Origin: Winogradskyella jejuensis
GTDB taxonomy: Bacteria; Bacteroidota; Bacteroidia; Flavobacteriales; Flavobacteriaceae
DNA length: 64,000 nt
Direction: 5' to 3'
Assembly (NCBI RefSeq): GCF_900129745.1
Contig: NZ_FQWS01000002.1
Coordinates: 682,001-746,000 of the forward strand
In this document: piece after piece, positions 48,464 through 49,325 of the stretch
Layout of the letters: every line of letters begins with the position of its first letter
Position numbering within the stretch: the first letter of the stretch is position 1
Notes under the pieces: generated by a model
The model's input: the letters and a program-made list of their open reading frames with translations, nothing else
What the model was told of the DNA's origin: nothing
Database searches by the model: none
Position numbers and translations under genes: made by a program

Positions 48464-48547
48464 GGAGAGGTGCCAGAGTGGTAATGGAGCAGATTGCTAA
48501 TCTGTCAACGCGTAAGTGTTGCCCGGGTTCGAATCCCGGTCTCTCCG
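48464..48547 (+). tRNA. tRNA-Ser (GCT)
   Basis: A full cloverleaf: acceptor GGAGAGG/TCTCTCC (one G-T pair), anticodon stem GCAGA/TCTGT with loop TTGCTAA, so the anticodon is GCT. It has the long variable arm expected for a type II tRNA (CAACGCGTAAGTGTTGC) and a T arm with GGTTCGAATCC. The 3' CCA is not encoded. Confidence 0.95.
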
Positions 48548-48572
48548 CAAAATTGAAATGATAACCGTTTTT

Positions 48573-48647
48573 CGGGGTGTAGCGTAGCCCGGTTATCGCG
48601 CCGCGTTTGGGACGCGGAGGTCGCAGGTTCGAATCCTGCCACCCCGA
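48573..48647 (+). tRNA. tRNA-Pro (TGG)
   Basis: Acceptor CGGGGTG/CACCCCG, anticodon stem CCGCG/CGCGG with loop TTTGGGA giving the anticodon TGG, and T arm GCAGGTTCGAATCCTGC. It lies 25 bases after tRNA-Ser and is probably cut from the same transcript. The CCA is not encoded. Confidence 0.95.
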
Positions 48648-48747
48648 CAAAATAAAGCGTGCTGTTTTTGTAGAAAGTTCACTTTCTTAAAAAAGTAAAA
48701 CGTTTTATAAAAATTAAAGTATTGCTTTAATTTGCAACAACCTTAAT

Positions 48748-48779
48748 CAGGATGACTGAGCAAAGCGAAGTAATCCTTG
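48748..48779. repeat. imperfect inverted repeat before tRNA-Arg
   Basis: CAGGATGACT (48748-48757) pairs with AGTAATCCTTG (48769-48779) with one bulge and one mismatch, around an 11-base loop. It resembles the short palindromic intergenic repeats common in Flavobacteriaceae (core CTGAGC...GCGAAGTAATC). Its function is unknown. Confidence 0.35.
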
Positions 48780-48782
48780 AAT

Positions 48783-48856
48783 GGTCGCGTAGCTCAGCTG
48801 GATAGAGCATCTGCCTTCTAAGCAGACGGTCACAGGTTCGAATCCTGTCGCGATCA
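48783..48856 (+). tRNA. tRNA-Arg (TCT)
   Basis: Acceptor GGTCGCG/CGCGATC (one G-T pair), D arm with GCTCAGCTGGATAGAGC, anticodon stem TCTGC/GCAGA with loop CTTCTAA giving the anticodon TCT, and T arm ACAGGTTCGAATCCTGT. A terminator follows directly. A broken second copy of its 3' part lies at 49141, behind the GIY-YIG gene. Confidence 0.95.
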
Positions 48857-48857
48857 C

Positions 48858-48889
48858 AAAAAGTCTTACCTTTATGGTAGGACTTTTTT
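48858..48889 (+). terminator. terminator of tRNA-Arg
   Basis: AGTCTTACC pairs with GGTAGGACT around TTTAT (one G-T pair), followed by T6. The same hairpin, with one loop base changed, recurs at 49220. Confidence 0.85.
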
Positions 48890-48900
48890 GTTTTAAGAAT

Positions 48901-49149
48901 ATGCTATTCAAAGTTTACATCATTTATTCTAATAAAATCGATAAGTTTTATGTTGGTTATTCTGGTGACATTTTAGAAGAAAGAATAAGAAAACATAACA
49001 CAAATCACAAAGGTTTTACTGGAAAAGCAAATGATTGGGAATTGAAATATTTTGAGGAATATTCAGAAAAATCCGAAGCCATAAAACGTGAATTATCAAT
49101 TAAGAATAAGAAGTCAAGAAAACATATCGAAAGATTGATTGCTGGATAG
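48901..49149 (+). CDS. single-domain GIY-YIG endonuclease-like protein
   Basis: An 82-residue protein. The ATG at 48901 is preferred over one at 48874, which lies inside the terminator hairpin. Motifs are VYIIYS...FYVGYS (the GIY-YIG pair), the Arg in ERIRKHN, and the metal-binding Glu in SEAIKREL. Such short GIY-YIG proteins resemble the UPF0213/SLX1 core without a DNA-binding domain. The gene lies 11 bases after the tRNA-Arg terminator, and its last codons (Ala, Gly, stop) are read from the start of a degenerate tRNA-Arg copy. It may be a minimal mobile element or a relic of one. Confidence 0.85.
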   Translation: MLFKVYIIYSNKIDKFYVGYSGDILEERIRKHNTNHKGFTGKANDWELKYFEEYSEKSEAIKRELSIKNKKSRKHIERLIAG

Positions 49150-49214
49150 AGCATCCCGATTTTCAATCGGGACGGTCATAGGTTCTCCCGAAAGCTTTCG
49201 GGATATCGTAATCA
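49141..49214 (+). pseudogene. degenerate tRNA-Arg copy overlapping the end of the GIY-YIG gene
   Basis: GCTGGATAGAGCATC is identical to 48797-48811 of tRNA-Arg, GACGGTCA and AGGTTC follow in order, and the copy ends AATCACAAAG like the original. The acceptor 5' half and most of the D arm are missing. The anticodon arm is replaced by the palindrome TCCCGATTTTCAATCGGGA (49154-49172), and the T arm is interrupted by TCCCGAAAGCTTTCGGGA (49186-49203). It cannot fold as a working tRNA. Confidence 0.75.
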
Positions 49215-49219
49215 CAAAG

Positions 49220-49247
49220 AGTCTTACCTTCATGGTAGGACTTTTTT
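49220..49247 (+). terminator. second copy of the tRNA-Arg terminator
   Basis: AGTCTTACC pairs with GGTAGGACT around TTCAT, followed by T6. It differs from the hairpin at 48858 by one loop base, and the identity continues through GTTTT after it. It ends the GIY-YIG transcript. Confidence 0.8.
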
Positions 49248-49325
49248 GTTTTCAGGTGTTTTTAGCTAATCTTTAACGTCTTTTTACAATTCCTACGATT
49301 TTATTTTCAATAACTTCGTGTTGCA

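Follow-up and report, generated by a model that had tools for sequence, protein, structure and literature searches.

A GIY-YIG gene between an intact and a palindrome-broken tRNA-Arg in Winogradskyella jejuensis: a candidate minimal homing-like element of Bacteroidota tRNA genes

Why should a gene for an 82-residue GIY-YIG nuclease lie between a tRNA-Arg gene and a damaged piece of the same tRNA? The question is raised by a 64,000-nt stretch of the Winogradskyella jejuensis genome (hereafter the window), the relevant parts of which are collected in Table 1. A preliminary description of this DNA had stated that the tRNA-Arg sequence from the D loop to the terminator recurs behind the gene, that the gene occupies the space between the two copies and that its Ala, Gly and stop codons belong to the repeat, all of which is correct. 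The sequence GCTGGATAGAGCATC is the same at 48797-48811 and 49141-49155, giving an exact start of 15 nt, and 48848-48897 matches 49206-49255 at 90% over 50 nt; the ORF carries the GIY-YIG domain PF01541 (E 4.1e-14), and its last codons, GCT GGA TAG, are the first bases of the partial tRNA-Arg repeat. This partial copy scores 11 to 13 standard deviations above shuffled flank. The earlier account identified the D loop, 3′ end and terminator of the second copy properly but missed that its middle consists of two palindromes. The likely start codon of the ORF is the ATG at 48901, which matches the start in relatives and gives a protein of 82 aa, rather than an upstream ATG within the terminator. 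The GIY-YIG gene is the sole ORF of at least 60 aa between the tRNA copies, and no site-specific recombinase is encoded among ORFs of that size there. We consider it about an even chance (roughly 0.5) that the locus is one copy of a Bacteroidota-wide, minimal and probably selfish homing-like element that parasitizes tRNA genes and whose junction is marked by a palindrome.

Table 1. Parts of the tRNA-Arg(TCT) locus and its upstream context (window coordinates)
Feature	Position	Strand	Basis or remark
tRNA-Ser(GCT)	48464..48548	+	ARAGORN; context
tRNA-Pro(TGG)	48573..48648	+	ARAGORN; context
Intact tRNA-Arg(TCT)	48783..48857	+	ARAGORN; Rfam RF00005, 72.2 bits
Terminator of intact tRNA-Arg	48858..48888	+	Terminator prediction
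GIY-YIG nuclease gene, 82 aa	48901..49149	+	PF01541; family alignment; structure model, mean pLDDT 88.8
D-loop start of partial tRNA-Arg copy	49141..49155	+	Identical to 48797-48811
Palindrome TCCCGATTTTCAATCGGGA replacing anticodon arm of partial copy	49154..49172	+	
Palindrome TCCCGAAAGCTTTCGGGA replacing part of T arm of partial copy	49186..49203	+	
3′ acceptor piece of partial tRNA copy	49204..49215	+	
Second terminator copy	49216..49246	+	Repeat match; terminator prediction

The encoded protein appears to be a catalytic domain and nothing else. Its structure model is a bare GIY-YIG fold of one domain, with no separate DNA-binding domain of the I-TevI type within the 82 residues, and the catalytic residues Y6, Y17, R28 and E64 are invariant in all ten aligned proteins, which share 43-56% identity with the window protein. 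The closest solved sequence is UPF0213 BH0048 (1zg2, E 3.1e-9), to which the I-TevI catalytic domain and Slx1 are weaker alternatives as relatives; the small GIY-YIG proteins of UPF0213 are those we take to be COG2827. A fold search likewise ranked 1zg2 first (2.5e-3), with Slx1 at 2.2e-2 and no match reaching E 0.001, and three members of the family that were compared with NCBIfam and PHROGs matched no family there. By analogy, a preference for branched DNA like that of Slx1 would suit a palindromic target.

The arrangement is not peculiar to this species. Loci selected by likeness to the window protein were gathered from 60 relatives (29 with a match), from 299 genomes of the family (78 with a match; the automatically supplied loci plus 60 further stretches, with the weakest matches left out) and from a named genome collection, in which the best 80 of 139 relatives were used. 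These best 80 of 139 loci all belong to Bacteroidota and represent at least six orders. After removal of duplicates with an identical gene and identical 30-nt flanks, 241 distinct GIY-YIG genes remained, 129 of which have a tRNA on the same strand within 200 nt (a few of these tRNAs may be ARAGORN miscalls), whereas a tRNA on the opposite strand within that distance was found for none of the 241. Leaving out two genes cut by contig ends, 127 of the tRNA-adjacent genes had enough flank to be assessed, and in 119 the sequence of the neighbouring tRNA is copied on the other side of the gene; in eight no such copy occurs on the far side. Five of the 119 copies are doubtful, and without them there are 114, 100 of which have a palindrome. 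The doubtful cases are L007 and L008, in which the alignment paired two intact tRNA-Val, and L080 (surely), L197 and L208 (both probably), in which a partial copy with a palindrome was called as a tRNA by ARAGORN. In L007, L008 and also L015, tRNA-Val(tac) and tRNA-Val(gac) enclose the GIY-YIG gene, and a palindrome-broken tRNA copy was not found in L007 and L008.

Two forms of the unit can be distinguished. In the downstream form (n=88), to which the window locus belongs, the intact tRNA stands upstream and the copy downstream, and the gene starts 40-56 nt past the tRNA (middle half of the values); the stop codon of the ORF falls within the aligned tRNA copy in 61 of these 88 units, so overlap between ORF and copy is common. 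In the mirror form (n=31) the copy is upstream and the intact tRNA downstream, with the ORF ending between 23 nt inside and 9 nt before the tRNA in 26 of 31. Where the preliminary description had spoken of a tRNA 3′ segment, this applies to the downstream form, but in the mirror form it is the 5′ part that is found, upstream of the gene. Its expectation that further units would be found beside other tRNAs and would contain part of whichever tRNA is local agrees with the eleven isoacceptors used, each represented by at least two clean cases or one clear case: Val(tac), Arg(tct), Arg(tcg), Arg(acg), Asn, Asp, Met, Phe, Pro(ggg), Pro(tgg) and Ala(ggc). At tRNA-Arg(tcg), the genome of W. jejuensis itself has another unit, this time of the mirror form. 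A more distant GIY-YIG gene in the same genome (E 0.3 to the query; L005, C4:285226-285417) follows the tmRNA gene in the same orientation, at a distance of about 240 nt.

The origin of the tRNA piece could be traced in units of the downstream form whose copies reach the tRNA 3′ end. The last 30 nt of the partial copy match its own neighbouring tRNA best, or tie for best, in 46 of 47 cases (36/37 Val, 10/10 Arg), and the next 32 nt beyond the copy do so in 22 of 37 Val and 8 of 10 Arg units. The tRNA part is thus copied on the spot, and it is the palindrome that goes with the nuclease. The earlier idea of an element that carries both a nuclease and a tRNA segment is supported as far as its recurrence at tRNA genes is concerned, but the tRNA part is of local origin rather than carried in. 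Units are also amplified in place: at 33 loci at least two distinct GIY-YIG genes lie close together in tandem, and about six near-identical 427-bp units follow a tRNA-Asn at L035. As to a vehicle, no match was obtained among 72,556 records of plasmids or 50,697 of phages, and viral contigs gave a single match at a contig edge. This contig (L310) begins with a GIY-YIG gene and a palindrome-broken piece of tRNA-Arg, as if a provirus had adjoined a unit.

A palindrome, defined as a perfect arm of at least 6 with a loop of at most 6, is present in 103 of the 119 copies, compared with 477 of 3000 random segments of equal length and 38 of 133 intact tRNAs, and is lacking in 16 of the 119. With arms of at least 7 the corresponding figures are 92/119, 187/3000 and 18/133. 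Its position is mostly specific to the tRNA: in the anticodon arm for Val(tac) (28|46 in 33 of 43), Arg(tct) (27|45 in 12 of 18) and Pro(ggg) (4 of 5), in the D loop for the mirror form at Asn (14|18 in 7 of 7) and in the T loop for the downstream form at Phe (56|62 in 3 of 3). In the Val palindromes the outer TCCCG/CGGGA does not vary, but the seventh pair may be T-A, A-T, C-G or G-C, and this pair is complementary in 33 of 33, a set of rows chosen for having the palindrome; when the segment was bounded only by tRNA anchors, at least seven pairs were found in 26 of 29.

Both the tRNA used and the palindrome follow the relationships of the nucleases. When form and tRNA are combined into one label, this label requires 33 changes on a tree of 119 proteins compared with a mean of 72.3 after shuffling (0 of 200 shuffles as low), and the tRNA label alone requires 30; this tree rests on few alignment columns and leaves many forks open, both near copies and vertical descent add to the clustering, and clustering of tRNA labels could also arise from vertical descent plus loss, which may be the origin of the distribution as a whole. 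On a tree of 236 proteins (duplicates removed by identical gene), the palindrome class, assigned to 189, requires 27 changes compared with 69.8 when shuffled, again with 0 of 200 as low. For these 189 of 236 genes a palindrome belonging to one of the named classes lies no more than 150 nt away, compared with none of 30 loci of Y1 transposases. Where both flanks could be classed, the class agrees in 45 of 50 compared with 11.5 in shuffled data, a figure that tandem arrays inflate, tandem neighbours in such counts not being independent. Palindromes on both sides were also found for 23 of 54 GIY-YIG genes without a tRNA in the locus compared with 6 of 259 control ORFs, counts that involve no naming of classes, keep terminators in and include some tandem copies; the 15 classes of tRNA-free GIY-YIG genes and the palindrome classes were named from the same data. 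The notion that palindrome class depends on the genome was refuted by G011, which contains three different palindrome classes, each with its own GIY-YIG clade. A stretch at L158 (G232:C34:6000-9600), in which there is no tRNA, comprises seven different tandem GIY-YIG genes mostly separated by TCCGCC..GGCGGA palindromes.

Some of these palindromes are scattered through genomes as well. TTCCTGC..GCAGGAA occurs in 0 to 74 copies per genome among 68 congeners, and genomes with the GIY-YIG clade that it flanks have a median of 25 copies (two per gene subtracted) compared with 11 in the others (p 0.015), with no enrichment of the other palindrome class (p 0.95). For a second clade the association with its own class falls from p 0.004 in raw counts to 0.13 after subtraction of two copies per gene, and it shows no link to the TTCCTGC class (p 0.83). 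TCCCGA palindromes are commoner across the family in genomes with the gene (p 1e-15 raw, 5e-5 after subtraction); within-genus pairs do not differ (7 higher, 6 lower, 1 tie), and the correlation within the genus drops from rho 0.57 to 0.09 upon subtraction. In the 3.03-Mb genome of W. jejuensis, TCCCGA-N(2-10)-TCGGGA has nine copies and the reversed control pattern none; two of the nine are the pair in the partial tRNA-Arg of the window and the other seven are scattered. One of the seven (L168, C9:483804-483822) begins what appears by eye to be a cobalamin riboswitch leader, and another (L164) lies within a coding ORF. The same genome contains sixteen TGCTGAA..TTCAGCA palindromes, and no gene of the GIY-YIG clade flanked by that class was detected in it at E 1e-12. 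From these distributions, dispersal of palindromes by the nuclease is possible. Y1 transposases of the RAYT type were considered as the source and rejected: Y1_Tnp matches occur in only 20 of the 68 congener genomes and not in the window genome at E 1e-5, and with named palindromes absent from their loci, Y1 transposases cannot generally account for the palindromes in this genus.

Empty sites, whose absence the preliminary description had named as counting against mobility, are the rule at this very tRNA. Of the 14 congeneric loci in which the tRNA-Arg(TCT) site was recognised, 12 are empty, in the sense of no GIY-YIG match by tblastn (E 0.01) within at most 900 nt downstream, the available contig stretch ending about 220 to 360 nt downstream in four of them. 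The two occupied sites are the window and G011, where the gene is broken by a stop and its protein is 38% identical to that of the window. In six empty congeners the tRNA-Arg does not differ from the intact one of the window, where only the partial copy is altered. The exact insertion junction could not be read from the empty congeners, as the downstream flanks of the occupied sites fail to align with them beyond the terminator. Two loci that are empty at tRNA-Arg (L058, L060) have, as judged by eye, apparent gene-less remnants at the next tRNA, Pro(GGG), consisting of a 5′ tRNA piece broken by a palindrome. Downstream of another empty tRNA-Arg(TCT) (L059, G036) there is an ORF that by eye resembles a tyrosine integrase, so larger elements, too, may make use of this tRNA. 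In the window the Ser-Pro-Arg tRNA cluster and an exonuclease-like gene share a strand, whereas in 13 congeneric loci they lie on opposite strands; this difference between window positions 48464-49252 and L055 and L057-L068 points to a local inversion.

Taken as a homing-like element, the unit would comprise an intact tRNA, a GIY-YIG nuclease and, for homology, a stretch of that tRNA in which a palindrome replaces an arm or loop. The nuclease would cause the DNA to break, either in a tRNA allele or in the palindrome, and during repair the intact tRNA would recombine with the partial copy, which would serve as the homology arm; the outcome could be insertion of a unit, tandem duplication or deletion back to an empty site. 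The palindrome would mark the junction and probably is the site of the nuclease, or abolishes that site in the copy. As the intact tRNA of the window equals six empty alleles, the carrier would itself remain open to cleavage at any site lying wholly within the tRNA. Because the intact tRNA is preserved, the cost to the host would be little. We infer cleavage, its site and the movement of the unit from the arrangement and distribution described above.

Elements that integrate at tRNA genes by means of a tyrosine integrase preserve a complete tRNA and have part of it repeated at their far end. The present units differ from them in having no integrase, a repeat spacing of about 0.35 kb and a copy that may be the 5′ or the 3′ part. 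They resemble free-standing GIY-YIG homing endonucleases in the conserved Tyr, Tyr, Arg and Glu and in the existence of alleles lacking the gene, whereas the window protein differs from enzymes of the I-TevI type in having no separate DNA-binding domain. The nearest known system is SegB, a free-standing GIY-YIG homing endonuclease of T4/T6 phages that adjoins tRNA genes and is reported to cut inside them and to drive recombination-dependent tandem amplification of the tRNA-segB unit (PMC13096335, PMC2988022). The likeness, as far as the descriptions in these sources go, is that of a free-standing GIY-YIG gene beside tRNA genes; the differences are that SegB is phage-borne and the present genes are chromosomal, that the window protein has 82 aa and only a catalytic domain, and that a partial tRNA with a palindrome is present here and not mentioned in the passages on SegB. 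By this analogy the units would be homing genes of the SegB manner, and without a DNA-binding domain of the I-TevI type they would stand outside the named families. Among the papers listed in topic searches of an open-licence library, none was seen to describe tRNA-linked GIY-YIG elements in Bacteroidota.

Another comparison is with REP/RAYT systems, in which the gene of a tyrosine transposase has REPs on both sides and these cognate palindromes co-vary with the gene and are scattered over the genome (PMC2817692). Here too palindromes lie beside the gene, their class varies with that of the enzyme and further copies occur in the genome; the enzyme is GIY-YIG rather than Y1 (HuH), however, and the units at tRNAs have the tRNA as one boundary. 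That the locus is such a counterpart, its nuclease acting on a cognate, genome-dispersed palindrome and the tRNA hairpin forming one of two bounding hairpins, is a rather doubtful alternative, though a serious one: it would account for the proximity of named palindromes to GIY-YIG genes but not to Y1 loci, the agreement between flanks, the clustering of palindrome classes on the nuclease tree, the tRNA-free genes with palindromes on both sides, the abundance of TTCCTGC..GCAGGAA with its own clade and not with the other, and the sparse occurrence of Y1_Tnp. Against these points, the dispersal correlations of TCCCGA and of the second clade weaken once two copies per gene are subtracted, the sixteen TGCTGAA..TTCAGCA palindromes of the window genome occur without the GIY-YIG clade of that class, both palindromes of the window are on one side of the gene, and the named classes were defined on the data tested. 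The related conjecture that each Bacteroidota GIY-YIG nuclease recognises and spreads its own palindrome, as in a REP/RAYT-like system with an unrelated enzyme, tRNAs being invaded because their arms are natural hairpins that could replace one palindrome, has a similar, rather low probability.

More conventional histories of the locus should also be weighed. Since the partial copies are of local origin, tandem duplication clearly takes place and most palindromes of the window's class lie elsewhere in its genome, one could imagine that a tRNA part and its terminator were locally duplicated in tandem on either side of a passenger GIY-YIG gene and then decayed, with the palindromes as unrelated repeats that build up wherever the sequence is unconstrained. 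Duplication and decay, however, leave the fixed position of the palindrome, its agreement in class with the nuclease and the recurrence of the arrangement unexplained, and the chance of two of nine genomic palindromes falling in one 63-nt segment is about 2e-8 (computed post hoc); this explanation is disfavoured and we regard it as unlikely. The tandem duplication that the preliminary description offered as an alternative thus survives as a contributing process, but the palindrome matching the nuclease clade is a regular component of the unit. Still less probable, in our view, is a gene useful to the host, in defence, tRNA quality control or repair, for which the tRNA gene would be an expression site: the invariant catalytic residues and the location of the gene on the strand of the tRNA agree with such a role, yet patchy presence, empty sites and tandem and broken copies fit a parasite better. 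The idea that the partial copy is retained as a tRNA-like RNA, its acceptor stem pairing anew with the end of the ORF, which came from the fold of the window sequence and odd ARAGORN calls, was rejected, since strands from the same locus score no better than those from other loci (4.52 versus 4.48; 73 loci) and 1269 of 5000 permutations were as good in acceptor re-pairing.

If the reading as a homing-like parasite of tRNA genes is true, many of the small GIY-YIG proteins found beside tRNAs in Bacteroidota would be tiny DNA parasites rather than stray repair genes, each consisting of one gene, a borrowed tRNA piece and a palindrome. It would also provide a simple origin for tRNA fragments, for tandem arrays beside tRNA genes and perhaps for some dispersed palindromes, and the spread of palindromes by a GIY-YIG enzyme would become testable.
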